A stretch of DNA of 64,000 nucleotides, from positions 186,001-250,000 of the forward strand of contig NZ_JAPJBQ010000002.1 in assembly GCF_026421305.1 (NCBI RefSeq), written 5' to 3'. Below the pieces are notes generated by a model. The model was not told the origin of the DNA. It ran no database searches and worked only from the letters and a program-made list of their open reading frames with translations. Numbering within the stretch: position 1 is the first letter of the stretch; each line of letters opens with the position of its first letter. This document shows positions 24,397-63,419 of this stretch, piece after piece. This stretch comes from Dyella silvae. Lineage in GTDB: Bacteria; Pseudomonadota; Gammaproteobacteria; Xanthomonadales; Rhodanobacteraceae. A program made the translations under genes and the position numbers.

Positions 24397-26118
24397 TTAG
24401 GTCTCGCCAAGAGCCGTGAGCACGTTCGCGCTAAGCACGGTGATGGGCAAGATACGGCCGTTGGTGTGGTCCTGATCAATGAACCACGCAATGTGTTCCT
24501 GTACCAGTGAGGCCGCAAGACAGTATCTGCCTGGTACGTCTGGTAGCCGCACGTGCATGCAGGTCAGTGCGTAGGCGCCCGGTGCGAGGTCGCCAGGCAG
24601 ATCCGTGCGTGCGCCGTCCGCCACCACGACTCTCCCCGTTTCTGTGAGCCAGCGATAGGAAAGTTTGACCGGATAGCGGCCCCGGGAGTGCCAGGTTTCC
24701 GTACTTTGGTTGGTGAGCTTGACCTGCAGTAGCAGGTCTGTGCCTAGCGGCGCCAAGTCAACGGAGGACATCACGTCCAGAGACGAGCGAAATGTCGTCA
24801 GCGCCTTGCCGGTCGCGCTAAAAGCACGTGCAGAAATGGTTTCCTCGTTGGGGAGCTTGCGGCACCAGGCAGCACCTTCTGACGTGCTTTCAATGCCGAG
24901 ATCTATATCGAGCAGAACCTTCCCCTCGAAATGTTGGGTGGCATAAGCCAGTGCGTTGAAGCTTGCGGCGGCATGCCGCCAATGGAAGCAGCCGTCGTAG
25001 TGGGAGGATGTGGGTGTGAGCGCGGCATCGACAGAATAAGCGCCGGGGCCCAGGCGATTTAGCGTGCTGAATCGAATGGTGTAGCTGCCCGGGGCCAAGG
25101 AATAGATGTCGCCAAGCAGTAGCGAGTTGGTGCCGAAGGCAAGTGATCCGTGCTCATCCTTGATGGCGATACCGGCGCTGACCTGATCGAGTGCCTCTCG
25201 CGCGGTGACATGAAACAGTACATCCATCATTTCGCCAGTCATGACCTGGCCTGGCCCGGAGACCCTGCCGATGATCTCGACTGCATTGATCTGGCAGCGA
25301 AGGTCCCCGAAGTCTTGTTTGACTGGCTCTGGGCAGTGCTCGGTTTCGTTGCTGTCCTCGTTGGCGGCGCTTGATAGATCGGGATGGCCCTCTGCTGCCA
25401 GGCCAGCCGACGAAATGAATCCACGGCGATCACGCTTGAAGCGGGAATGCGCATAGGAATAAAGGGCGATCTCCGGCTCAAGCAGATTCTCGATGGCGCG
25501 GCGCTGGCCGGTCGTCAGGTCGCTTGGCTGCAAACGACGGGAGGTGACATTGAGCTGCTCGGCCCACGCTAGCGGCCACCGGAACTTGGCGCAGAGCATG
25601 CTGCAGAAATCTTCCATCTCCTCTTGAACGCCAACGAGCGCGAACTGATCGATGGCTATTTTCGATGCTGAGAATTTCTCATCCGTGCTCAGGCGTGTTT
25701 GTGCCGTTGTGCCGAGCGGATAGAGCATCTCCATTTGTGTCATGGGAGCGTTTGCCGGCACCTGCGAGAGGTGCTCGATATAGGTCTCCAGATCTCCGGC
25801 ACGTTGGCATGCGTCGACAAGCAAGTTGTCTACATCAAATTTGTTGTAGAAGTACTCCGAGAGAAAGCGGTCAACGGGATCTCTCAACACCGTGACGGCC
25901 AATCGCTCAGGGGGAATGATGTCGGCTTGCCGCGCAATGAAATGGCCGCTGATGACCGCAGTATCGCGCCATTGCAGTAATGCCTCTTCCAGCATCATGC
26001 CTTGCAAGGGCGGGCTCACCGATTCCTCACCCAATTGATCGACAAAGAAGCGGCGGAGCGCCGTTCCCCCGGTCTTAGGCAGGTGCAGATGCAGAAGCTT
26101 TATCTTTTTGTCGGCCAT
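24397..26118 (-). CDS. Sulfotransferase fused to Wzt_C-like and beta-sandwich domains
   Basis: 573 residues in three parts. (1) Residues 1-225: PAPS-dependent sulfotransferase, with 5'-phosphosulfate loop HLPKTGGTAL (12-21) and 3'-phosphate motif VLRDPVDRFLSEY (77-89). (2) Residues about 273-405: a domain like the C-terminal sugar-binding domain of Wzt. Compare IKDEHGSLAFGTN and LGPGAYSVDAALTPTSSH with IRDRLGQAMFGTN and LGVGSYSVSVALSSTETH in the wzt product of this window. (3) Residues about 458-550: an Ig-like beta-sandwich with repeated Trp and PG turns (LAPGAY, DVPGRYCLAASLV, HIAWF). No signal peptide, so cytoplasmic. Likely sulfates the O-antigen, with the Wzt_C-like part binding the chain end; this is inference. 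The DNA is less GC-rich than the flanks, suggesting transfer. No ribosome-binding site is evident. Confidence 0.85.
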   Translation of the reverse strand: MADKKIKLLHLHLPKTGGTALRRFFVDQLGEESVSPPLQGMMLEEALLQWRDTAVISGHFIARQADIIPPERLAVTVLRDPVDRFLSEYFYNKFDVDNLLVDACQRAGDLETYIEHLSQVPANAPMTQMEMLYPLGTTAQTRLSTDEKFSASKIAIDQFALVGVQEEMEDFCSMLCAKFRWPLAWAEQLNVTSRRLQPSDLTTGQRRAIENLLEPEIALYSYAHSRFKRDRRGFISSAGLAAEGHPDLSSAANEDSNETEHCPEPVKQDFGDLRCQINAVEIIGRVSGPGQVMTGEMMDVLFHVTAREALDQVSAGIAIKDEHGSLAFGTNSLLLGDIYSLAPGSYTIRFSTLNRLGPGAYSVDAALTPTSSHYDGCFHWRHAAASFNALAYATQHFEGKVLLDIDLGIESTSEGAAWCRKLPNEETISARAFSATGKALTTFRSSLDVMSSVDLAPLGTDLLLQVKLTNQSTETWHSRGRYPVKLSYRWLTETGRVVVADGARTDLPGDLAPGAYALTCMHVRLPDVPGRYCLAASLVQEHIAWFIDQDHTNGRILPITVLSANVLTALGET

Positions 26119-26368: not shown

Positions 26369-27790
26369 TCAGGATCGACCGTAGACATCCTCGATGCGAA
26401 CGATGTCATCCTCACCAAGGTAGCTGCCTGATTGAACCTCAATCAGTTCAAGCGGCACCTTTCCGGGGTTCCGGAGGCGATGCACGCTGCCGAGCGGAAT
26501 ATAGGTGCTCTGGTTTTCGCCAAGGAGGAATACCCGTTCGTCACACGTGACTTCAGCAGTGCCTGAAACGACGATCCAGTGCTCAGCGCGATGGTGATGT
26601 TTTTGCAGGCTGAGTGCCGCCCCTGGCTTTACGACAATACGTTTAACCTGGAAGCGCTCCCCGGATTCGATGGAGTCGTAGCTACCCCACGGACGGCGAA
26701 CAATGCGATGGAACGAGTGCTCGCTTCGGCCCGCTGCCTTCAACTCGTCCACGACGCGCTTGACGTCCTGCGCGGCATCGCGATGCGCGACGAGCGTGGC
26801 ATCAGGCGTGGTGACGACAATCAGGTTGTCCACACCGACCGTCGCCAGCAAGTGGCGCTCATGTGAGCGAAGCAGAGAGTTGCTCGTATTTACCGTGATG
26901 GTATCGCCTTCACGCAGATTACCTTGCGCGTCACGCGCCCCGGCGAGCCACAGTGCTGACCATGAACCAATGTCGCTCCAATCGCAGGAGACAGGAATGA
27001 CGGCGGCCCGAAGCGTTTTCTCCATGACTGCATAGTCGATGGAGTTGTCGGGAACCCTGGCGAACGCTTCGGCGTCGATACGAACGAAATCGAGGTCCGC
27101 CTTTGCCGATTCATAGGCGATTCGCACGGCCTCGAGCATGTCCGGGGCGTATTGCTCGAGTTCCTCAAGGTAACGAGAGGCTTTGAACATAAACATGCCC
27201 GAGTTCCAGTCGTAACCGCCATCGGCAAGGTAAGCCTCGGCTGTAGCGAGTGCTGGCTTCTCGACGAACTGTGCGACTTGGTATGCACCATCGTCGATCA
27301 CCTCGGCTCGACGGATGTAGCCAAAGCCGGTTTCAGGACGATCGGGGCGAATACCGAAAGTAACCAGCCAGCCAGCGTTTGCAGCGGGGAGCGCGAGATG
27401 AACCCCTTCCGAAAAGCTATCAGCATCACCGATCAGGTGGTCGGCCGGCAGCACCAGGAGGATCGCATCGGGGTCGCGTTTGACTGCTTGCAGCGCGCCC
27501 AACGCGATGGCAGGTGCCGTATTGCGCGCCACTGGCTCAAGTACGATGGTGGCGTTCTTGACGCCGGTCTCAAGTAGCTGCTCGGCTGCCAGAAAGCGAT
27601 GGTCCTCACTCGCCACCACGATGGGGGCGGCCACGTCCGGCAGCAATCGTGTGCGCTCCACTGTCTGCTGGAACAAGGTGCCTTGCCCAGTCAGAGACAG
27701 GAACTGCTTGGGAAGATTCTTGCGTGACACGGGCCACAGGCGAGTGCCGCTACCGCCGCTGAGGATGAGTGGAATCAGCATGTTAGTCAC
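26369..27790 (-). CDS. xanB: Mannose-1-phosphate guanylyltransferase / mannose-6-phosphate isomerase
   Basis: Bifunctional type II enzyme, 473 residues, making GDP-mannose and interconverting mannose-6-P and fructose-6-P. Nucleotidyltransferase N-terminus IPLILSGGSGTRLWPVSRKNLPK; VLPADH and FVEKP are conserved. The C-terminal cupin isomerase domain has RPWGSYDSIE, KPGAALSLQKHHHRAEHWIVVSGTAEV and ENQSTYIPLGSVHRLRNPGK. The GTG start overlaps the rmlD stop; an ATG three codons later (27781) is equally possible. Its partner xanA, adjacent in Xanthomonas, is about 20 kb away here. GDP-mannose feeds gmd/rmd in the same window. Confidence 0.94.
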   Translation of the reverse strand: MTNMLIPLILSGGSGTRLWPVSRKNLPKQFLSLTGQGTLFQQTVERTRLLPDVAAPIVVASEDHRFLAAEQLLETGVKNATIVLEPVARNTAPAIALGALQAVKRDPDAILLVLPADHLIGDADSFSEGVHLALPAANAGWLVTFGIRPDRPETGFGYIRRAEVIDDGAYQVAQFVEKPALATAEAYLADGGYDWNSGMFMFKASRYLEELEQYAPDMLEAVRIAYESAKADLDFVRIDAEAFARVPDNSIDYAVMEKTLRAAVIPVSCDWSDIGSWSALWLAGARDAQGNLREGDTITVNTSNSLLRSHERHLLATVGVDNLIVVTTPDATLVAHRDAAQDVKRVVDELKAAGRSEHSFHRIVRRPWGSYDSIESGERFQVKRIVVKPGAALSLQKHHHRAEHWIVVSGTAEVTCDERVFLLGENQSTYIPLGSVHRLRNPGKVPLELIEVQSGSYLGEDDIVRIEDVYGRS

Positions 27791-32659: not shown

Positions 32660-34081
32660 GTGAGTATGGAAAAGGCAGGAATGACATCGGCAAGTGGCAT
32701 GCGTCGTATGGCGCTCGCGCTTTTGCGGGCGATAGGTCGCATGGGTTCGACGTCGTTGTATTCCAGGATTTCTGCCTGTTTACCCAAGGCACTCAAGGCA
32801 CGCGTGCACCGGTCCCTGCTAAGCGCTGCGGCCGGTCCACAAACAACGCTGGTTTTTCCTGCAGGCGCTCGTGATAGCCAGGGCGAACCCGCTTCGACGC
32901 CCATGCCACAAGCGGTGGCAGTCCCTCAGGAAGTCCTGCAGGGGCACGGCGTCAATCTGATCGGGTACGTGCGTGGCGGATTGGGGCTGGCGGAGAACGT
33001 TCGTTCCTTCGCGAGGGCCTTGCGCGCCAGGCGCTTTCCTATGGCGCTGATCGACGCCAACGTGCTCGAAGAGAGTCGCAACACCGACGACTCGCTCGCG
33101 CCCGATACCGAGCGCGACGCACAGCATGAGATTGACGTCTTCTTCGTCAATCCAGATCAGTTGCGTGATGCCATCCAGGCCGTTCGCGGCAGCGATGCGC
33201 ACTATCGAATCGGCTATTGGTTTTGGGAGCTGGAAGAGATTCCGGAACAGTGGCTGCCTTCCATTGATCTTGTCGACGAGATTTGGGTCTCTTCCGAGTT
33301 CGTCAAAGCTGCTTTCGCGAAAGTCACGGACAAGCCAATCACGCTGATTCCGATGGCGGTCGAAGTCGATACAAGTCAGTTGTCGGGGGTGAAACGGGGG
33401 GAGTCCGAAGCAGGGCCGTTCACGTTTCTTTTCAACTTCGACTTTCATTCGTACGTCGAGCGGAAAAACCCTTGCGCTTTGATCGATGCTTTTCGCTTGG
33501 CCTTTCCGGCTGAAAGAAGCGATGTGCGTCTGATCATCAAGTCGATCAATGGTGAGTTGTTCCGGAGGCAGTACTACCAGCTTTTGTCACGTGCCGCGGA
33601 GGATCGCCGCATTGTGGTCAGTGATGGTTTTGTATCGCGTCACCAGATGCTCGAGCTGGTGAATGGGGTGGATGCCTACGTATCTCTCCATCGATCAGAA
33701 GGTTTTGGCCTGGGTCTCGCCGAGTCCATGTATCTCGGTAAAGCCGTCATTGGCACGGGTTACTCCGGCAACCTTGAATTCATGAAGTCCGATAACAGCT
33801 GCCTTGTGGATTTCTCCATGACGCGCCTGAGGCAGGGTGATTACGTTTATGGCGAGGGTCAGTATTGGGCAAATCCCAATATCGAGGACGCTGCACGATA
33901 CATGCGGAAGCTCGCAGACGAACCCGAGTTCGGAAGCGCTTTGGGGCATAGGGCCGCTGAATACATGCGCCTGCACCATTCGCACAAGCAAAGCAGTGAT
34001 GTGGCTATTCGGCGGCTTCAGCAGATCCAGCGAAAGCTTGGTCTGGAGGTCGCGGTCGCCGAAAAAATTGGGGAGCAGTGA
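32660..34081 (+). CDS. GT4-type glycosyltransferase, first gene of O-antigen cluster
   Basis: 473 residues. After a basic, partly helical N-terminal extension (about 1-95), the Rossmann-like acceptor half starts at GVNLIGYVRGGLGLAENVRSF, followed by GYWFWELEEIPEQW. The donor half has FLFNFDFHSYVERKNP and the GT4 EX7E-like signature SEGFGLGLAESMYLGKAVIGTGYSGNLEF. Cytoplasmic, nucleotide-sugar dependent; the sugar is unknown, with rhamnose or mannose plausible from the precursor genes here. The start is uncertain: GTG 32660, ATG 32666 or ATG 32681, the last with AAGG upstream. Confidence 0.88.
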   Translation: MSMEKAGMTSASGMRRMALALLRAIGRMGSTSLYSRISACLPKALKARVHRSLLSAAAGPQTTLVFPAGARDSQGEPASTPMPQAVAVPQEVLQGHGVNLIGYVRGGLGLAENVRSFARALRARRFPMALIDANVLEESRNTDDSLAPDTERDAQHEIDVFFVNPDQLRDAIQAVRGSDAHYRIGYWFWELEEIPEQWLPSIDLVDEIWVSSEFVKAAFAKVTDKPITLIPMAVEVDTSQLSGVKRGESEAGPFTFLFNFDFHSYVERKNPCALIDAFRLAFPAERSDVRLIIKSINGELFRRQYYQLLSRAAEDRRIVVSDGFVSRHQMLELVNGVDAYVSLHRSEGFGLGLAESMYLGKAVIGTGYSGNLEFMKSDNSCLVDFSMTRLRQGDYVYGEGQYWANPNIEDAARYMRKLADEPEFGSALGHRAAEYMRLHHSHKQSSDVAIRRLQQIQRKLGLEVAVAEKIGEQ

Positions 34082-34110: not shown

Positions 34111-34905
34111 ATGAACGAGATGCTTGAGGCAGTCTGGCGCTATCGCCATTTCATCGTATCGTCGATCAAGAATGATCTGCGTTCGCGCTTTGCGCGAAGC
34201 AAGCTGGGTGCTCTATGGATGATCCTGCAGCCTTTGGCGCAGGTGGCGATCTACTCGCTTGTGCTTTCCCGCATCATGTCGGCGAAATTGCCAGGTATTA
34301 GCAATCCCTACGCATACTCAATCTATCTGCTGGCTGGCATGCAGGGCTGGTCGTTATTCAATGAGATCGTCAGCCGGTCGCTGACGGTGTTCGTGGACAA
34401 TGGCCGCCTGCTGAAGAAGATCGTCTTCCCAAGAGTCTGCCTTCCCCTCATTACGGTGGGTTCGGCTCTTGTGAACAACGTCATGTTGTTCCTGGTCATG
34501 ATCGTCGTCTTTGCCATGCTCGGCCATTTCCCTGTCATCGCGCTGTTGTGGATGCCGGTGCTCATGGTGATTACCGCTGCTTTCTCGCTCGGGTTGGGGC
34601 TTTTGCTGGGCGTGCTGAACGTGTTTGTGCGTGACATTGCACAGTTCATGATGGTGGTGCTGCAGCTTTGGTTCTGGCTCACCCCGGTGGTGTACATGGC
34701 GTCGATTGTTCCGCCTAGCCTGCACTCGCTCATGCAGCTCAACCCGATGTACTGGATTATCGATGGATACCAGCAAACACTGGTTTACGGGCACGGCCTG
34801 GACGCCATGAACTTCGTTCCGGTAGTGATTGCATCACTGGTACTGCTTGTCATCTCGCTGTTCTTGTTCCGCAAAGCAGCTCCGGACATGGTGGACGTGC
34901 TATGA
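34111..34905 (+). CDS. wzm: O-antigen ABC transporter permease
   Basis: Inner-membrane half of the ABC-2 polysaccharide exporter, 264 residues with about six TM segments. RSRFARSKLGALWMILQPLAQVAIYSLV at the N-terminus is the family signature, and QLWFWLTPVVYM near the C-terminus is conserved. The ATG has GGAAGAG upstream. Its stop overlaps the wzt start by ATGA. It exports a finished undecaprenyl-linked chain to the periplasm, showing this O-antigen is made by the ABC-dependent rather than the Wzx/Wzy route. Confidence 0.96.
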   Translation: MNEMLEAVWRYRHFIVSSIKNDLRSRFARSKLGALWMILQPLAQVAIYSLVLSRIMSAKLPGISNPYAYSIYLLAGMQGWSLFNEIVSRSLTVFVDNGRLLKKIVFPRVCLPLITVGSALVNNVMLFLVMIVVFAMLGHFPVIALLWMPVLMVITAAFSLGLGLLLGVLNVFVRDIAQFMMVVLQLWFWLTPVVYMASIVPPSLHSLMQLNPMYWIIDGYQQTLVYGHGLDAMNFVPVVIASLVLLVISLFLFRKAAPDMVDVL

Positions 34906-36194
34906 CGGATGCAGCGCTCACCGTAACGAATGTCGGCAAGTCGTATCGCGAATATGGTAGCGAATGGCGCCGTTTTGGCATGTGGTTTGGCTTGCGCTCC
35001 TCTCGCATTAAGGAGCACTGGGTTCTTCGGAATATCAATTTCGTTGTTCGCCGTGGCGAGGCGGTGGGCATTGTCGGGCAGAACGGCGCTGGCAAAAGTA
35101 CGCTATTGAAGATCGTCACCGGTACGCTGGGTGCGACGGAAGGTGGCGTTACAGCGAGCGGCAGGATTGCAGCCATCCTTGAACTCGGCATGGGCTTCAA
35201 TCCCGATCTGACGGGTCGCCAAAATGTAGAGCACAGCGCGGGGCTTATGGGTTTCTCGCGTAGTCAGATTCAGATGCTGCTACCTGAGATTGAGGCGTTC
35301 GCGGAGATTGGCGCGTACTTCGACGAGCCCATGCGGACCTATTCCAGTGGTATGCAAATGCGTGTGGCCTTTAGTCTGGCCACAGCCATGCGCCCGGATG
35401 TGCTTATCGTCGACGAGGCCTTGTCGGTAGGCGACGCCTACTTCGTCCATAAATGTTTCAAGCGGATCCGGCAGTTTCGTGAAGAGGGGACCACGCTGCT
35501 TATCGTGTCCCACGACAAAGGGGCGATACAGGCACTTTGTGATCGGGCTGTGATGCTCGAAAAGGGACAGCTGATTGCCGATGCGTCGCCGCAAGAGGTG
35601 ATGGACCTCTACAACGCACTGATCGCGGAAAAGGAGAACGGCTCCATCCGCCAGGTCAGTGCTGCCGATGGGCAGACGGCCACTACGTCGGGCACCGGAG
35701 AGGCCACCGTAGAGCGCATCTGGCTACAAGATGACCAAGGGCGTTCGCTGGAGTACGTGGGCGTCGGAGATCCTGTTGACCTGGTCATTCGCGTGCGCGT
35801 GAATGCACCGATCGAGCAGCTGGTCATTGGTTACATGATCCGCGATCGGCTTGGTCAGGCCATGTTTGGCACGAATACGTCGTATGCCGAGCAGGTGATC
35901 GAAAATGCCAATCCGGGGGACGAGTTTGAATTGCATGCGCGTTTCGCCATGAACCTGGGCGTGGGCAGCTATTCGGTATCCGTGGCCTTGTCCAGTACGG
36001 AAACGCATTTGGTCGACAATTTCGAGTGGCGCGATCTGGCGCTCATCTTTACCGTGGCCAATACGCAACGCGCCCCGTTCGTTGGATCTACCTGGGTCCC
36101 TCCTCAGGTGACTATCGACTGCAATGGCCAAAATATGTCGTTGGAGTCTGCCTCTGATGCGCAGGGCGGGCCACGACTGGTCACTGGCCGATAA
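34902..36194 (+). CDS. wzt: O-antigen ABC transporter ATPase with C-terminal Wzt_C domain
   Basis: 430 residues. The ATPase part has Walker A GQNGAGKST (59-67), signature YSSGMQMR (147-154), Walker B VLIVDEAL (167-174) and SHD (203-205). Residues about 268-402 form the Wzt_C beta-sandwich. In E. coli O9a and similar systems this domain binds the modified non-reducing end of the chain and so selects finished polymers for export. Presence of the domain predicts that the chain here carries a terminal modification. The same type of domain is fused to the sulfotransferase at 24397-26118. Translationally coupled to wzm. Confidence 0.95.
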   Translation: MTDAALTVTNVGKSYREYGSEWRRFGMWFGLRSSRIKEHWVLRNINFVVRRGEAVGIVGQNGAGKSTLLKIVTGTLGATEGGVTASGRIAAILELGMGFNPDLTGRQNVEHSAGLMGFSRSQIQMLLPEIEAFAEIGAYFDEPMRTYSSGMQMRVAFSLATAMRPDVLIVDEALSVGDAYFVHKCFKRIRQFREEGTTLLIVSHDKGAIQALCDRAVMLEKGQLIADASPQEVMDLYNALIAEKENGSIRQVSAADGQTATTSGTGEATVERIWLQDDQGRSLEYVGVGDPVDLVIRVRVNAPIEQLVIGYMIRDRLGQAMFGTNTSYAEQVIENANPGDEFELHARFAMNLGVGSYSVSVALSSTETHLVDNFEWRDLALIFTVANTQRAPFVGSTWVPPQVTIDCNGQNMSLESASDAQGGPRLVTGR

Positions 36195-36237
36195 TGGATT
36201 GGAAGGCAGCATTTCAACGGAATTCGAGGTAATAAGC

Positions 36238-37859
36238 ATGAAAGATGACGAGCAGTCGAAACAAGATCGCGTTGCAGAACCGGCTTCGTTATTTCCGGTT
36301 AGCGCATCACTATCTATCGACGAGCTAATGCGGCGCGTACGTGCAGAAGTTGAGCGCCGCCGTCTCCTCTCGAGAGAAGAGGATGCCGGACGTTCTGTTG
36401 AAAATGATGGCCAGCAGCGCTTGCCTCGTTGGAATGGTTTTGGCTCCAGACTGCCGGTAAAGGACAGCTACCGCCTCGCCGAATTCTTGCAGCTGTGGGA
36501 CGAAGAATTCGTCTCGACCGTTTACCGGGTTGTCCTGCGTCGCCCAGCGGATCAACAAGGCTACAAGCATCATCTTGATGCCCTGCGATCTGGGCAGCGG
36601 AGTCGTGTGCAAGTGCTCGGCAGCATCCGGTTTTCCGAGGAGGGCCAGCGCCTGGGCGTCCATATCGACGGTCTGCTCATCCCCTATAGACTGCAAAACC
36701 TCCGCCGCATTCCTCTCATCGGTCGATTGGCTTCATTTGGCCTGACGCTCGTTCGTCTGCCGAATCAGCTGCAGTCGTTGGCCACGCATTCCGGACGGAC
36801 GTCCCAGGCGATGGTTGGTCTGGTTGGGCGAATCGAAGAGACCCTTGAGCAGCATTTCAAGGTTATCCATGAAGATCTCGATGAGCGCGCCAATGCCACA
36901 ATGCAACGCGTCATTGAGGCGAGACAGGCCACGCTAGCGCGCGATTTGTCTGAGATACGAGAAGACATTCGCGCTTTGCGCGCTGAGCTCGCCCACGTAA
37001 AAGCGAAGTACGAAGCTCATCAGGGGAGCTGGCGCGACGTTTCTCCCAATTCGTTGGTCTCGGCAGTTAATGAGAGCCGCCGCGGCCTAATCGATCTGCA
37101 GAGGAAGTTGATGACCTTGGCATCGTCGAACCCGGTGTCAGGTTCTGCTGGAGTGCAGGGCACGTCAGAGGCAGCCACTTCCATTCTTGATGCGGAGTAC
37201 ACCTCGTTTGAGGACACGTTCCGTGGCACCAGGGACGACATCAAGAAGCGTGCTGAACATTATCTCGATCACCTCGCAGCTGCAGGAGTGACGCCATCTT
37301 CTGGTTTGGTGATTGATTTGGGATGCGGTCGCGGCGAATGGTTGGAGCTGCTTCGTGAGCGGGGATATCAAGCTCGCGGCGTTGATATGAATCCGGTGAT
37401 GCTGGATGACTCGATCGCACATGGTCTCGATGTGGTAGAGGCAGATGCGCTGACATACCTGCGTGGTCTGTCGGATGCCTCGGTGGCGGCTATTACGTCC
37501 ATGCACCTCGTTGAGCACTTGCCTCAGGCAGTATTGATCCAGTTGCTTGACGAGGCTATGCGTGTTCTTAAGGACGGTGGGCTCTTGGCGCTCGAAACGC
37601 CTAATCCGGAGAACATCACGGTAGGCGCCTGCTGGTTCTATATGGATCCGACGCACCGCAACCCTATTCCGCCCCCGCTATTGCAGTGGACCGTTACCAA
37701 TCGTGGTTACGTCGATGCAACGATTCACCGCCTCAAGGAGCATCGTGGCGTATCGCAGTTGGAAACTGTGCCGGCAGATCAGCCAAATGCGTCGCAGATG
37801 AATGAAATGATCGGATGGTTCACCGCTGCGCCGGATTACGCCATCGTGGCGCGAAAAGC

Positions 37860-37863
<4 letters not shown>
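36238..37863 (+). CDS. DUF4214 / coiled-coil / SAM methyltransferase
   Basis: 541 residues. Residues about 76-140 resemble DUF4214 (FLQLWDEEFVSTVYRVVLRR then FSEEGQRLGV); 196-292 form a long charged coiled coil; 355-460 is a SAM methyltransferase with motif I VIDLGCGRGEWLELL, GVDMNP and MHLVEHLP. The start MKDDEQSK has GAGG at good spacing; the frame extends back inside wzt but that is out of family. Its place between wzt and rmd suggests it methylates the end of the O-chain. The coiled coil could act as a molecular ruler as in WbdD, although here it precedes the catalytic domain; both are inference. Its stop overlaps rmd (ATGA). Confidence 0.87.
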
Positions 37864-40797
<2,934 letters not shown>

Positions 40798-40852
40798 TTG
40801 GCTTGGTATAGGCAGTGGTACTCGAAGATTGATGGGAAGGACGGGGTAGGGC

Positions 40853-42889
40853 GTGACGAAGCAACTCAATGTGGTCATTATCGATATGCAGCCAATCACC
40901 CCGGCGGTGGGTGGCGGGCGGCAGCGCTTACTCGGGCTTTATCACGCCCTCGGGCCCAATATTGCTGCCACTTATGTCGGAAGTTACGACTGGCAGGGTG
41001 AGCCCAAGCGCGAACACCAGCTCACTACCGGGCTGCGGGAGATTGTGGTTCCGCTGAGCGATGCTCATCATGCCGCCGCCAAGGCGGCATCCGATCGTAT
41101 ACATGGCCGGGTGGTTATCGATTGCCTCTTTCCGAAACAAGTTCATCTCTCGCCTGAGTTTCTCACGGTGGCGCGTGAGCACATGGCCAAAGCCGATGTC
41201 GTGGTCTTCTCCCATCCGTGGGCGTTCCCCCCGCTCGCTGATTCCCTTTCTCCCGCGCAACTGGTGGTGTACGACTCGCAAAACGTCGAGGCGGTTCTGC
41301 GAACGGATCTGCTTGGCGATCTGACTGAAGCAGCGGATGTCTTGCAGACGGTAGTCGAAGCTGAGTACGACCTTTGCCGGCGGGCAGATTTGATCCTCAC
41401 GTGTTCGCACGATGATCGGCAAACATTTGCAGCACTTTTCGATCTGCCCATGTCGAAGTTGCGCATCGTTCCAAATGGGATTTTCGCCTTCGATGCAGCG
41501 CCGGCGAATAAACAAACGCGAGCAGCTGCGAAAGCCGAGCTTGGGTTAGATCAGTCGGTATGTATTTTTGTGGGCAGCAACTACGGCCCCAACAATGATG
41601 CCGCGCACTACATAGCCACAGAGCTCGCCACACGGTTTGCCGACGTGTGCTTTGCCATTGTCGGGGGGTGCAATGCAGCACTGCAGCAGGTGCCGATTCC
41701 CGGGAACGTAAGGACGCTCGGTGTGCTGGATGAGGCCGAAAAGCGTTTATGGCTTACGGCTGCGGATGTGTCGCTCAATCCGTTGTCCCAGGGTTCGGGA
41801 ACCAGCATAAAGATGTTTGACTTCATGGCGGCTGGTGTTCCGGTGCTTACGACGGCGCCGGGTGCGCGCGGCATCATTCAGACGGGAAGGGCGGCGTTTC
41901 GGCTCGCGTCTCGTACACAGACGCCTAAGGCACTACGGGAGCTGCTGGCTCATGCGGAGCAGCGTGATGAGTTGGCAGGGAATGCGCGCAAGCTTGTCGA
42001 AAATCACTACGCATGGGAACGCATTTCGCCTCGCACAGGAATGCTTCTACGCGCTTTCTATGCCGCCAAGCACGAGGGACGGAAGTCGTTTTCCGTCATT
42101 ATTCCCAGTTATGAAAGGCCCGGTCACCTCGATAGGTTGTTCGAACGCCTGGAGGCTCAGACAGAGCGGAGCTTTGAAGTCATTGTGATCGATCAGTCGG
42201 CCTCGCCCTGGCATGGCTCGACTAAGCCCTGGACCTTTCAGCTCACCTACGTACATTCGCCCGTAAAAGGGGCAGTGGTGTCACGTAACACCGGAGGAGA
42301 ACTGGCCACCGGTGCGGTGATCGCATTTACGGATGACGATTGTGAGCCGCTGCCCGACTGGCTGCGCCACGCATTGAGGCTCCTGGAGCAGCCCGATGTG
42401 GTCGGAATAGAAGGACGAGTCGAATCGGACCACTTGGATGATCCCGAGTGGCGCTCTGTCAGCAACGTCAATTTCGCCGGGCTCGGCTTCATGACCGCGA
42501 ACCTGCTCGTGCGCAATGAAGTGTTTCAAGCCCTCGACGGCTTCGACCTGGCTTTCGACGAGCCACATTTTCGCGAAGACACTGAGTTTGGCTGGCGTAT
42601 GCAGACTTTGGGGAACGTCCCGTACAGTAACGACGTCAGAGTGTTCCATCCTGCGCATCGTAGAGACCAGGTTCGTGAATCGTCTGCCGAGCGAAACAAG
42701 TTCTTCGAGAAAGATGCTCTGTTGTACCGAAAGCACCGCGGGCGCTATATCGAACTTCTGTTGGCCGAAGGGCATTGGCAGAATACGCCCGGCTTCTGGG
42801 AGAATTTTGAGCGCGGTGCCAACAAGTACGCCGTCGAGTTGGGCGAGGAGCTCATGCAGTATCGGGACCTGTATCGGGCCACCTTGTAG
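40853..42889 (+). CDS. Bifunctional glycosyltransferase, GT4 fused to GT2
   Basis: 678 residues. Residues 1-405 are a GT4 enzyme (AVGGGRQRLLGLYHAL, VVYDSQNVEA, IVPNGI, FVGSNYGPNND, SQGSGTSIKMFDFMAAGVPV). Residues about 412-640 are a GT-A GT2 enzyme (FSVIIPSYERPGHLDRLF, VSRNTGGELATGAVIAFTDDDCEP with the metal-binding Asp cluster at 494-496, and HFREDTEFGWRM). Fused transferases can build a two-sugar repeat with alternating linkages. The GTG start has GGTAGGGC upstream; it lies 55 bases after the previous transferase. Last gene of the plus-strand O-antigen operon. Confidence 0.92.
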   Translation: MTKQLNVVIIDMQPITPAVGGGRQRLLGLYHALGPNIAATYVGSYDWQGEPKREHQLTTGLREIVVPLSDAHHAAAKAASDRIHGRVVIDCLFPKQVHLSPEFLTVAREHMAKADVVVFSHPWAFPPLADSLSPAQLVVYDSQNVEAVLRTDLLGDLTEAADVLQTVVEAEYDLCRRADLILTCSHDDRQTFAALFDLPMSKLRIVPNGIFAFDAAPANKQTRAAAKAELGLDQSVCIFVGSNYGPNNDAAHYIATELATRFADVCFAIVGGCNAALQQVPIPGNVRTLGVLDEAEKRLWLTAADVSLNPLSQGSGTSIKMFDFMAAGVPVLTTAPGARGIIQTGRAAFRLASRTQTPKALRELLAHAEQRDELAGNARKLVENHYAWERISPRTGMLLRAFYAAKHEGRKSFSVIIPSYERPGHLDRLFERLEAQTERSFEVIVIDQSASPWHGSTKPWTFQLTYVHSPVKGAVVSRNTGGELATGAVIAFTDDDCEPLPDWLRHALRLLEQPDVVGIEGRVESDHLDDPEWRSVSNVNFAGLGFMTANLLVRNEVFQALDGFDLAFDEPHFREDTEFGWRMQTLGNVPYSNDVRVFHPAHRRDQVRESSAERNKFFEKDALLYRKHRGRYIELLLAEGHWQNTPGFWENFERGANKYAVELGEELMQYRDLYRATL

Positions 42890-43227: not shown

Positions 43228-45243
43228 TCAATCTCCGATGTCGACCTTCGACAGCGAAATGGAGAGGCGACGAGAGTCGCCTGCGGGATACCCGAGATCC
43301 GCAGGAAGTTTGATCTCGTTACCCTGAGTTAACTTGATGAGCAACTGGCCATTGGTCGCTTCCAGGCAGCGAGACGGCACGACCACCTTATAGGGCTTGA
43401 TGGCGTCGCTTGTTACGTCGAAGTTCGCGGCCTGGCAGTCGTTGATCGTCACGTTGGTGGGCAAATGCTTGTAACCATCGAATGCTCTCAACCAAAGAGT
43501 GACGCTCAGGTCGCTCTTGGGGACATTCAAGGGAATCGCTATCAACGATTCTTGACCTACGGCCCACGTGCCCCACGACTCGGGCTGTGCAAACCCTGAC
43601 TTCAGGACAAGTTGACCAAGACCGCTTGTTGTGGGGTAGACAGATGAATGGGTGCCATAGACGCACCGATGTTTGCCCGCGAGCACTTCGCCGGCCCCGG
43701 CCTTTGCCGCTGGCCCAGCGGGCCGTCCGTTCGGGAAGGCAATCGCTGCATTAAGTCCGCAGACGGATGCAATCGACTCACCCGGGCGGGCGACGGTCAA
43801 CATGACGAAGCCCGATTCATCAGTTGATGGGACACTGACTGTCTGGGGGCCATCCCACCCTTCTGTGCCCCGGATCCTTTCGTACAGGATCTCCGCGTCC
43901 CAAGGTATCAGCCTTGGTGCATTCTGGATAAAGAAATTGGCTGCTGGCTGGAGGCGGAGATAATAGACATTCGCCGGAAGACCGGCGAGCCGAATCGTCC
44001 AAAGCAGCTGAAAGCAAAGCGCAGCCACGCACAGGCTCATGAGGTGCCGTGACTTTGGACTCAGCTCCGCCATCATGAACGTCGATAGCGCAATGAAGGG
44101 AGCAATGAGCCAGGTCGAATAACGAATGGGGCCCATCGAGCCGGCGTTCCAGTTGATCTGTGCGAGTGTGGGCAGGGCCGCCAAAGTGCATGCCAGAATT
44201 GCTCCGGCGACGCATAACATCGTACTTCTGCGGCCTTTCTCCCGATAGAAATAGCAGGCCGTGAGAATGGGGATAAAAAGTGCGATGGGCGACCAGAAGA
44301 AAAGCCCCTGATTGGGATCGACAAACACTGACAAAAGCCTGGACAGGCTGATCAGTGATCTATCCAGGTAACCACCGCCAGCGATAAGGCTGAATACTCT
44401 GAATTTCCAGAAGTAGAAGAGGAATGGCGCGGCGAAAACCAGTGCGCCTGGAAGCAGACGCAGACCTAGTCGGACGGTTTGCTGGATCCGTTCCGCACCG
44501 GACCGCCATATGGTCACCAGATCCCAGATACCAAACGGCACGATAAAGAAGATGACCGATGGATTCTGCCAGGAGGCCATGGCCAGGCTTACGAACGCGA
44601 ATCTGCGCGCGCCTCGAAGCATCGCTACAAAGGAGCAGAATGCGAGGCTGGCCGTAAAGACCTCTGGGTGCGGCCAGTTGATGTAGTAGATACCGACCGT
44701 CAGCAACAGAACCGCGAGCGTCGTGAGATATACCGCGGGCTGCAGGCGAAGCCAGCGCTGTGCAAACAGAGCGGCACCGACCAACAAAAAAGTGTTGAAA
44801 ACAATAAACGCGTTAAGAGGGTTCAGCCCGAACAGCTTCAATAGCCAGAAAAAGGGCGCGCTTAGTGCGGCGTACCCAAAGAAGTGGCAGCCATAAATTT
44901 TACCGTCGCGCGAGGTATAGAGGCATGCCTGTCCGGTTGGCTTTGATGAGAGCACCTTGCCCAGCTCTTCGCTCGAAGCCTTGTCGAGGACTTGAGTGCG
45001 TCCAGGCGCTGCCTGAATCTTATTAAGGTAAGCCAGGTCACGCAGGTTAAGCGCCGGACCATGCCCTTTCGCAAAAGACATGAGTTGGAGGAAGTACTCT
45101 TTTCCATCGCCATACATCGCGGGAGTAGCGACGGCCGCAAAACCCAGCGAGATCACGAGGATGATCCACGGAAGCCAGCCGGCCGGGTTCTCGCGTGTTG
45201 GCTTCGAGTGAATCAACCCTCCAATCATTCGGTCACCGTGCAT
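43228..45243 (-). CDS. Polytopic GT-C-like membrane glycosyltransferase
   Basis: 671 residues with about 10 TM segments in the first ~415, then a soluble beta-rich domain of about 250 residues. The first periplasmic loop has YGDGKEY with Asp46 and Glu49, the place where GT-C enzymes keep a catalytic acid. Other loops contain INWPHPEVF and MGPIRYSTW. The C-terminal domain includes QPESWGTWAVGQ, resembling sugar-binding beta-sandwiches fused to GT-C proteins. Probably uses a polyprenyl-phosphate sugar in the periplasm. Its start overlaps the SMR-like gene by 11 bases; an ATG five codons later is also possible. No characterised close relative recognised. Confidence 0.75.
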   Translation of the reverse strand: MHGDRMIGGLIHSKPTRENPAGWLPWIILVISLGFAAVATPAMYGDGKEYFLQLMSFAKGHGPALNLRDLAYLNKIQAAPGRTQVLDKASSEELGKVLSSKPTGQACLYTSRDGKIYGCHFFGYAALSAPFFWLLKLFGLNPLNAFIVFNTFLLVGAALFAQRWLRLQPAVYLTTLAVLLLTVGIYYINWPHPEVFTASLAFCSFVAMLRGARRFAFVSLAMASWQNPSVIFFIVPFGIWDLVTIWRSGAERIQQTVRLGLRLLPGALVFAAPFLFYFWKFRVFSLIAGGGYLDRSLISLSRLLSVFVDPNQGLFFWSPIALFIPILTACYFYREKGRRSTMLCVAGAILACTLAALPTLAQINWNAGSMGPIRYSTWLIAPFIALSTFMMAELSPKSRHLMSLCVAALCFQLLWTIRLAGLPANVYYLRLQPAANFFIQNAPRLIPWDAEILYERIRGTEGWDGPQTVSVPSTDESGFVMLTVARPGESIASVCGLNAAIAFPNGRPAGPAAKAGAGEVLAGKHRCVYGTHSSVYPTTSGLGQLVLKSGFAQPESWGTWAVGQESLIAIPLNVPKSDLSVTLWLRAFDGYKHLPTNVTINDCQAANFDVTSDAIKPYKVVVPSRCLEATNGQLLIKLTQGNEIKLPADLGYPAGDSRRLSISLSKVDIGD

Positions 45244-60624: not shown

Positions 60625-61527
60625 ATGTCTTCCTTGTCCTATCTGGATGCGCTCGAAGCCGAAAGCATCCACATCTTCCGCGAGACGGCCGCTGCTTTTG
60701 AGCGGCCGGTGATGCTCTATTCCATCGGCAAGGACTCCTCGGTCCTGCTGCATCTGCTGCGCAAGGCGTTTTACCCGGCGAAGCCTCCGATGCCGCTGCT
60801 GCATGTGGATACCACCTGGAAATTCCGCGAGATGATCGCGTTCCGTGATCAGGTGGCCGCCGCAGGCGATGTGGAAGTGCTGGTGCACATCAACGAAGAG
60901 GGCGTGCGGCAGGGCGTTTCGCCGCTCACCCACGGCTCGGCAGTGCATACCGATGTGATGAAAACGGCTGCGCTGAAGCAGGCGTTGGACAAATATGGCT
61001 TCGATGCCGCCATCGGCGGTGCCCGTCGCGACGAAGAGAAGTCGCGGGCCAAAGAGCGCGTGTTCTCGTTCCGCAATGCCCAGCATCGCTGGGATCCCAA
61101 GCACCAGCGGCCGGAGCTGTGGCACACCTACAACACGCAGATCCGCAAGGGCGAAAGCGTGCGTGTATTTCCGCTATCGAACTGGACCGAGATGGATGTA
61201 TGGCATTACATCCGTCGCGAGCAGATCCCCGTGGTGCCGCTGTATTTCGCCAAGCCCCGGCCGGTGGTGGAACGTGATGGGGCGTTGATCATGGTCGATG
61301 ACGAGCGTTTCATCCTGCGTGAAGGCGAGCGCGTCGAGATGCGTGACGTGCGTTTCCGCACCCTGGGATGCTACCCCTTGACCGGTGCGGTGGCGTCCGC
61401 TGCCGACACGCTGGACAAGATCATCGACGAGATGGCGGCCTCCCGTAGTTCCGAGCGCCAGGGCCGGGTCATCGATCACGATGCGAGCGCATCGATGGAG
61501 CGCAAGAAGCAGGAGGGGTACTTCTGA
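60625..61527 (+). CDS. cysD: Sulfate adenylyltransferase subunit 2
   Basis: 300 residues, ATP sulfurylase small subunit. PP-loop motif [47 protein letters not shown] and [12 protein letters not shown]. Works with CysN to form adenosine 5'-phosphosulfate. The stop overlaps the cysNC start (TGATG). No strong ribosome-binding site is seen. cysH, cysI and cysJ are absent from the window. Confidence 0.96.
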
Positions 61528-63419
61528 TGGCGATGACGGAGCACACGGCCGCCACCGTGCAGAACAGCACCAACCTGTTGCGCTTCATTACCTGCGGCAG
61601 TGTCGATGACGGCAAGAGCACCCTGTTGGGGCGGCTGCTGTACGACGCCGGGATGGTCCCGGAGGATCAGCTCGCCGCGCTGGCGCGCGACAGTCGCAAG
61701 TTGCACACCGATAGTCCGGACGCGCTGGATTTCTCCCTGCTTACCGATGGTCTCGACGCCGAGCGGCAGCAGGGCATCACCATCGATGTGGCCTACCGCT
61801 ATTTCCATACGCCACGACGCAACTTCATCGTGGCGGACTGTCCTGGGCATGAGCAGTACACCCGCAACATGGCCACGGGTGCTTCCAACACTCAGTTGGC
61901 GGTGGTGCTGGTCGACGCGCGAAAGGGTTTGCTGCCGCAGACGCGCCGGCATACCTATATCTGCGCCTTGATGGGCATCCGCCAGGTGGTGCTGGCGGTG
62001 AACAAGATGGATCTGGTCGACCATCGCGAAGACATCTATGCGGCCATTGCCCATGAGTACCGGGAGCTGGCCGCGCAGCTGGGCATCGGCAGCGTTCATT
62101 GCCTGCCCGTAGTGGCACCGGCCGGCGATAACGTCGGGGAGCGCTCGGCGCGTATGTCCTGGTATCGGGGCCCCTGTCTGCTCGAACTACTGGAGGCGGC
62201 CGACACCGCCGCAACGCAGGCCGTCGAGTTCCGCATGCCGGTGCAGTGGGTCAACCGGCCCGATGCCTCGTTCCGGGGTTATGCCGGCACCATCAGTGGT
62301 GGACGCGTCGCCGTGGGTAGCGAAATTGTGGTGCAGCCGGCGATGCGCCGTGCCCGCGTGGAGCGCATCGTCACCGCGGACGGCGATCTGGCGCACGCGA
62401 CGGCCGGGCAGGCGGTGACGCTGACGCTCGATCGCGAGGTCGACGTAAGCCGGGGCGACGTGATTGCCGACGCCGCGCGTCCCGCGCCGGTCGCCGATCA
62501 GTTCGCCGCCCACGTGCTGTGGATGGGTGACGAACCACTGCTGCCCAACCGCGCCTACTGGCTCAAGATCGGTTCGCGTACCGTCAACGCCCGCGTTACG
62601 ACTATCAAGCACAAGGTGGATGTGAACACGCAGGCCGAGCTGGCGGCCCGCCGTCTGGAGCTCAACGAAGTCGGCTACTGCAACATCGATCTGGACCATG
62701 CGATTGCCTTCGAGTCCTACGTGGACGATCGCACCCTGGGCGGTTTCATCCTGATCGACCGGCAGACCAACGCCACCGTCGGCTGCGGCATGCTCGACTT
62801 TGCCCTGCGCCGCGCCGCCAATGTGCACTGGCAGCACACCGACCTCGACAAGGAGGCCCGTAGTGCCAGCAAGGGTCAGCAGGCGCGCTGTCTGTGGTTC
62901 ACCGGCCTGTCGGGAGCGGGCAAATCCACCGTGGCAAACCTGGTGGAACGCCGGCTGCACGCTCTGGGCTATCACACCTACATGTTGGACGGCGACAACC
63001 TGCGCCACGGCCTGAACAAGGACCTGGGCTTCACGCCGGAGGCGCGCGTGGAGAACGTGCGCCGCGTGGCCGAGGTGGCGCATCTGATGGTCGACGCGGG
63101 TCTGATTGTGCTGGTTTGCGTGATCTCTCCGTTCCAGAGCGAACGCCGCTTCGCACGCCATCTTTTCGACCAGGGCGAGTTTCTCGAGGTGTTTGTCGAT
63201 ACGCCGCTGGCGGAGTGCGAGCGCCGCGATCCGAAGGGGCTGTATCGCAAGGCGCGCGCCGGCGAGATCGTCAACTTCACGGGCATCGACTCGCCCTACG
63301 AAGCGCCTGAACGGGCAGAGTTGCATCTGCACACGTCGGGGTTGCGGCCGGAGCAGTTGGCCGAGCAGGTGGTGGAGCAATTGCTTGCGGGCATGACCGA
63401 ACACGGTCATCGCGCGTAA
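61527..63419 (+). CDS. cysNC: Bifunctional sulfate adenylyltransferase subunit 1 / APS kinase
   Basis: 630 residues. CysN part (1-~445): GTPase with [35 protein letters not shown] and NKMDLVDH. CysC part (~450-630): APS kinase with [35 protein letters not shown] and [22 protein letters not shown]. Makes PAPS from sulfate and ATP. PAPS feeds sulfate assimilation and any sulfotransferase, including the one at 24397-26118. Confidence 0.97.

Follow-up and report, generated by a model that had tools for sequence, protein, structure and literature searches.

A predicted PAPS-type sulfotransferase joined to a Wzt_C domain and an Ig-like domain in Dyella silvae, probably an accessory enzyme of an ABC-exported O-polysaccharide

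Wzt_C domains serve the exporter as the quality-control reader of the finished O-antigen. The protein described here has in common with the carbohydrate-binding domain of Wzt (Aquifex aeolicus 8dky/8dku; Klebsiella O12 type 5hno) the sequence family, the fold and, in the fusion of this locus, the Asn, His and Trp contacts, whereas a sulfotransferase stands in place of the ATPase and the methyl-pocket positions are occupied by Ala and Asp. The terminators WbdD and Klebsiella ORF6-O7 are reported to carry a coiled-coil ruler, the O7 terminator also having an Ig-like carbohydrate-binding module (CBM) (PMC11231755). The fusion would likewise be a modifying enzyme associated with an ABC-exported O-polysaccharide, and it has an Ig-like domain as the O7 enzyme does; unlike these terminators, it is a sulfotransferase and not a methyltransferase or kinase, its model shows no ruler, and the exporter module occurs without it. 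Polysaccharide sulfotransferases have been reviewed, with mention of bacterial ones (PMC11625862). With the heparan sulfate 2-O- and 6-O-sulfotransferases (HS2ST and HS6ST) the fusion shares the PAPS-binding loop, the 3'-phosphate segment and the GH histidine, and differs from them in being bacterial and joined to two beta-sandwich domains, a glycosaminoglycan acceptor not being expected. Also, the rhizobial LpsS sulfates LPS, an activity that is only predicted for the fusion; unlike the fusion, LpsS is annotated as a member of the Stf0 family (PMC12445080).

The window analyzed here is the whole stretch of 64,000 nucleotides from Dyella silvae, and its relevant features are collected in Table 1. 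The open reading frame singled out by the initial annotation is real, is flanked by glmS and manC, and its product (P0001) is confirmed as a PAPS-type, HS2ST/HS6ST-like sulfotransferase joined to a true Wzt_C domain and an Ig-like domain. No ABC_tran match was found in the protein (Pfam, E 1), which sets it apart from a Wzt exporter subunit. This three-domain arrangement is new and rare, its parts being already known; a full-text literature search, covering titles and the starts of abstracts of open-licence papers, returned no description of a sulfotransferase-Wzt_C fusion, and nothing was returned among open-licence papers for PF14524 or Wzt_C together with a sulfotransferase. The low G+C content that had been taken as a sign of acquisition was counted correctly (26 of 60 bases in the line at 25801, against 39 of 60 at 62281), but these lines are not representative: the fusion gene has 58.2% G+C, the adjoining polysaccharide locus (26369-48690) 57.7% and the remaining window 63.0%. 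Since gene and locus have nearly the same value, the reduced G+C is a property of the whole locus, and it was rejected as a sign of single-gene acquisition.

Table 1. Coordinates of the fusion gene, its domains and the neighboring genes, counted from the first letter of the window
Feature	Position	Strand	Evidence
Fusion protein sulfotransferase - Wzt_C - Ig-like domain, P0001	24397..26118	minus	573 aa
Sulfotransferase domain, residues 1-240	25399..26118	minus	Pfam just below cut-off; HS6ST/HS2ST profile matches; Foldseek
Presumed 5'-phosphosulfate-binding loop, residues 12-19 (HLPKTGGT)	26062..26085	minus	H12, T16 and G18 invariant in 13/13; aligns with HS6ST HIQKTGGT
Presumed 3'-phosphate-binding segment, residues 76-88	25855..25893	minus	R79 and S87 invariant in 13/13; aligned with HS2ST/HS6ST
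His59, proposed catalytic base	25942..25944	minus	G58-H59 invariant in 13/13; aligned with the GH of HS2ST
Wzt_C carbohydrate-binding domain, residues 268-399	24922..25317	minus	Pfam Wzt_C (PF14524)
C-terminal Ig-like domain, about residues 443-560	24439..24792	minus	Model pLDDT 93; Foldseek
manC	26369..27790	minus	Next gene upstream of the fusion, same strand; TIGR01479 2e-210
Glycosyltransferase (GT4-like)	32660..34081	plus	
wzm, ABC-2 permease	34111..34905	plus	Pfam ABC2_membrane 2e-22
wzt, ATPase with C-terminal Wzt_C	34902..36194	plus	Pfam ABC_tran 1.5e-19, Wzt_C 1.6e-34
DUF4214 - charged region (resembling a coiled coil by eye) - methyltransferase	36124..37863	plus	Pfam Methyltransf_23 2e-16, DUF4214 2e-9
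NAD-dependent sugar-nucleotide SDR adjoining gmd	37815..38807	plus	rmd by position only
gmd, GDP-mannose 4,6-dehydratase	38804..39781	plus	TIGR01472 5.4e-128, 427 bits (cut-off 415)
Two glycosyltransferase genes (39778-40797; 40853-42889, GT4+GT2)	39778..42889	plus	Pfam
cysD-cysNC, sulfate activation to PAPS	60625..63419	plus	NCBIfam

The genes around the fusion comprise manC, rmlA, phosphomannomutase, gmd, wzm, wzt, a methyltransferase and glycosyltransferases; other genes of the locus are presumably rmlB, rmlC, rmlD, metB and rmd, names given from the look of their sequences, and the SDR adjoining gmd reached no NCBIfam cut-off. The two glycosyltransferase genes downstream of gmd would be the probable polymerase. 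For the methyltransferase next to wzt, the true start probably lies inside the reading frame, and Pfam matches of coiled-coil type, below the cut-off, fall within 234-332. Also, the window encodes a 671-aa protein on the minus strand (43228-45243) that neither Pfam nor NCBIfam assigned to a family with confidence.

For the sulfotransferase domain, the single-sequence Pfam comparison fell short of the assignment made in the initial annotation: Sulfotransfer_2 at residues 3-95 scores 20.8 bits against a cut-off of 22, below the gathering score, and a Gal-3-O sulfotransferase family 20.9 bits against 27. The assignment is borne out by a profile built from 13 rows, four of them divergent proteins without Wzt_C, which matches the solved chains of HS6ST (4.5e-21) and HS2ST (2e-15). 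Moreover, a Foldseek comparison with the fusion model matched HS6ST (5t03/5t05). Fourteen columns are invariant in all 13 sulfotransferase domains, among them H12, T16, G18, G58-H59, R79 and S87. Residues 12-19 and 76-88, which we take to be the 5'-phosphosulfate-binding loop and the 3'-phosphate-binding segment, are placed such that both the PAPS-binding loop and the Arg and Ser contacting the 3'-phosphate are present. From the alignment, His59 is proposed as the catalytic base, and the HS2ST residue facing it would be His142, the putative base described for that enzyme (PMC6094399). Sulfate transfer by P0001 is a predicted activity.

The Wzt_C domain is identified by PF14524 at residues 268-399 (E 8.4e-19, 68.4 bits against a cut-off of 30.4). 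The two motif pairs on which a kinship with the Wzt of the window had been suggested are both present, and the two proteins resemble each other more than chance would allow, as judged from searches of a one-sequence database with blastp (E 5e-10, 32% over 98 aa) and phmmer (1.2e-12); these are the only two Wzt_C domains of the genome. In addition, a profile matched the Aquifex Wzt domain with an E of about 1e-20. The full-length fusion was modeled with AlphaFold from 9 sequences, giving a model of moderate confidence (pLDDT 69.4), whose top three Foldseek matches are RbmA chains with a low TM-score. The same model matched the solved Wzt domains 8dky, 5hno and 2r5o, with TMt 0.65 and rmsd 2.9 for 5hno_A; for 8dky_A the TMt is higher (0.77), but the rmsd over 170 columns reaches 10.8. 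Thus, the beta-sandwich fold of the solved Wzt domains is found in the modeled fusion, in agreement with what had been expected of its structure.

The binding pocket of this domain differs from that of the exporter, with the N, H and W contacts kept. The cap-binding residues described for the Aquifex domain (PMC9445017) were mapped through an HMMER alignment, the chain numbering being one ahead of that of the paper, as judged from residue types. Asn313, Ala348, His355 and Trp362 correspond to N331, A366, H373 and W380, and all are kept in the window fusion. On the other hand, the positions of L300 and T346, which according to that description line the 3-O-methyl pocket, are replaced in the fusions by Ala (Gly in G280; genomes are given as G numbers) and Asp (Asp364), respectively. 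Among the 57 distinct rows of the pocket comparison, three were truncated copies of fusions and were excluded, leaving 10 fusions and 44 other Wzt_C domains, these 44 being best-scoring loci and not a random sample, called exporters from the length of the reading frame and the start of the sequence. In this set, the Ala/Gly and Asp pair is present in 10/10 fusions and 0/44 other domains, whereas Asp at the T346 position is not diagnostic alone because it occurs also in 4/44 of the others. Regarding the sugar contacts, N313, H355 and W362 are all preserved in 7/7 fusions whose genomes also encode a Wzt_C exporter, and one or more of them are broken in 3/3 fusions from genomes without it, Trp362 being kept in 9/10 fusions. 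This split counts as one event because the three broken cases form one clade. A weaker form of the initial idea survives, in that the contact split would favor an epitope common to fusion and exporter.

The C-terminal domain has no Pfam match, and it was modeled confidently from 20 sequences (pLDDT 93) as the Ig-like sandwich that had been predicted. Foldseek relates it to CARDB, NBR1 and ILRUN domains and to porphyran- and agarose-binding CBMs, with a TM to query of 0.43 to 0.51. A second architecture was observed at L054:1456-2694 (G431), where a sulfotransferase is directly joined to the same Ig-like domain and no Wzt_C was found. The domain is present as well in an FkbM methyltransferase and in short proteins whose N-terminal parts are alike (L057, L058, L060, L048). 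Also, several large proteins that appear multi-spanning by eye end in a domain matching the Ig-like profile (L027:16736-18706, L033:5170-7107, L033:14668-16749, L119:2531-4498); they sit near polysaccharide loci and matched no Pfam family at the thresholds used.

The fusion is rare, with a total of 10 genomes found. The full-length protein is encoded in 9/233 genomes of the Rhodanobacteraceae, the one of the window included, the full-length relatives having 38-45% identity. A sample of the order (299 genomes) gave four full-length rows, of which only G280, from another family, was new, and in the samples of the class (369 genomes) and the phylum (398 genomes) no full-length fusion appeared at E 1e-15 besides that of the window. 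A scan of named genomes with two peptide patterns recovered five loci, corresponding to G061, G068, G059, G067 and G082, of which G061 and G059 are labeled as the same genus as the window. In a tree that left out the three truncated copies, the Wzt_C domains of the fusions form their own clade of 10 with a support of 100/99, the bootstrap being not fully settled; recent copying from the neighboring wzt was rejected on the grounds of this separate clade. Carriage by plasmids was likewise rejected, as none of the 12 matching plasmid records covered more than 38% of the query. The phages searched gave no match to the fusion, and of 170 stretches in viral contigs that fit the peptide pattern none was confirmed. 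From its sparse spread, acquisition of the gene is plausible.

The genomic context supports a tie between the fusion and an ABC-exported polysaccharide. Each of the 10 fusion genomes carries gmd, and a permease of the Wzm type lies at a distance of 2.5 to 7.4 kb from it. Within the family, gmd (E 1e-90) is present in 9/9 fusion genomes against 111/210 of the family genomes (hypergeometric 0.0027), and within the genus in 3/3 against 6/20 (0.018), both values being without correction for kinship. The fusion gene is at most 19 kb from gmd in 7/10 genomes, while gmd is more than 1 Mb away in G186 and G079 and on another contig in G067. Wzt_C exporters, in turn, are no commoner in family genomes with the fusion (6/9) than in those without it (173/221), and because of this the link to capped-chain export is carried by gmd and gene position only. 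The sugar involved is probably D-rhamnose. Regarding the sulfate donor, the window genome has two APS kinases, and cysNC lies near the fusion also in G069, G079 and G082. Linked PAPS genes were rejected as evidence specific to the fusion, since exactly two APS kinases are found in 18/20 genomes of the genus irrespective of the fusion (one in G047, three in G049); for the same reason, cysD-cysNC indicates capacity only.

The initial annotation had gone further and proposed that sulfate added by the sulfotransferase caps the chain and terminates it, the Wzt_C domain of the exporter recognizing the sulfated end. The same type of domain in both proteins and the contacts that are intact where a Wzt_C exporter is present agree with this proposal, although, as noted, the split of seven against three amounts to a single clade. 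The comparison with genomes in which the fusion was not found tells against it. The order wzt - methyltransferase - SDR - gmd - two glycosyltransferase genes recurs in G145 and G117, and G152 shows part of it, with Wzt, a methyltransferase homolog and gmd present; the identities to the Wzt of the window are 76%, 72% and 75%, respectively. In the family scan, which scored the best five candidates per genome, no full-length fusion was found among the best 5 of 8 in G145 and in G117, nor among the 2/2 candidates of G152. The wzm gene was seen in G145 and was not picked up in G117 by the gene picker at the locus. Moreover, the exporter of G152, the closest in one comparison of exporters, differs from that of the window in only one of the 10 pocket positions, although an exporter may change its ligand without a change in these ten positions. 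Conversely, G079, G082 and G067 have a fusion and no other Wzt_C above the cut-off, the sole extra match at E 10 being a 14-bit fragment in G082, whose assembly has a completeness of 91% and consists of about 250 contigs; short ATPases of 249 and 247 aa were found in G079 and G082, respectively. The pocket for the cap is altered in 10/10 fusions, and the model, of moderate confidence, shows no long helix like a coiled-coil ruler, the longest one having 25 residues; a crude heptad score placed no protein above its shuffles. Based on these observations, sulfate as the required terminator is not supported, and that sulfate forms the chain end read by the exporter appears very improbable. The comparative data speak against the fusion being needed by the CBM-bearing exporter, and the fusion looks like an optional decorator because related bacteria in which it was not found have the same set of export genes. 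Most likely, the role of chain terminator belongs to the methyltransferase beside wzt, which with its weak matches of coiled-coil type is the better candidate. Such a gene is found there in the window, in G061 and G069, where it is an FkbM methyltransferase that adjoins wzt, and in G145, G117 and G152, where homologs of the window gene have 51%, 50% and 42% identity, respectively. The methyltransferase of the window would then be the likely cap enzyme of the O-antigen.

Considering the above, P0001 is probably an accessory O-sulfotransferase that docks on an ABC-exported, gmd-dependent O-polysaccharide, and not the terminator required by the exporter, which would most likely be the methyltransferase next to wzt. 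We infer that in the cytoplasm its Wzt_C domain, perhaps helped by the Ig-like domain, would dock the enzyme on the lipid-linked O-polysaccharide, and that the PAPS-dependent transfer would place sulfate, prior to export, on a sugar located at the non-reducing end or close to it. P0001 would thereby decorate O-antigens that depend on gmd, are ABC-exported and probably contain D-rhamnose, although its acceptor could be other than the O-polysaccharide. A version of the latter option, in which the sulfotransferase serves a different glycan or glycolipid and has taken over the Wzt_C domain as a general beta-sandwich module, seems unlikely; the large distance of the gene from gmd and the exporter in 3/10 genomes and the degenerate contact residues of three fusions speak for it, and the presence of gmd in every fusion genome, and its proximity in most of them, against it.

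A further reading, which overlaps with that of an accessory O-sulfotransferase, is that the Wzt_C domain binds the chain end itself, capped or, through Asp364, uncapped, so that only chains in the right state at their end would receive sulfate, the fusion competing with the exporter or with the methyltransferase. It draws on the contacts being intact in 7/7 fusions that coexist with a Wzt_C exporter against 0/3 of the remaining, and on the replacements shared by all fusions at the two positions that line the Aquifex 3-O-methyl pocket (PMC9445017). Against it stand the occurrence of the same Asp in a few other domains and the lack of enrichment of Wzt_C exporters with the fusion, and we regard this reading as tentative, possible and somewhat doubtful.

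Finally, an equally tentative extension is that the Wzt-type domain, its pocket rebuilt, lets the enzyme sense the state of the non-reducing end of the O-chain and sulfate only chains in that state ahead of the exporter, so that two proteins would inspect the same end. A literature search of open-licence papers returned no case of Wzt_C used for end-reading by a sulfotransferase. A tailoring enzyme that bears a Wzt_C domain with its own conserved pocket is then a natural test of whether the reader module can bring enzymes to chain ends as well. Moreover, the acceptor of a Sulfotransfer_2-like enzyme can be guessed from the domain attached to it, and for Dyella-like bacteria this would mean that sulfated O-antigens are possible.
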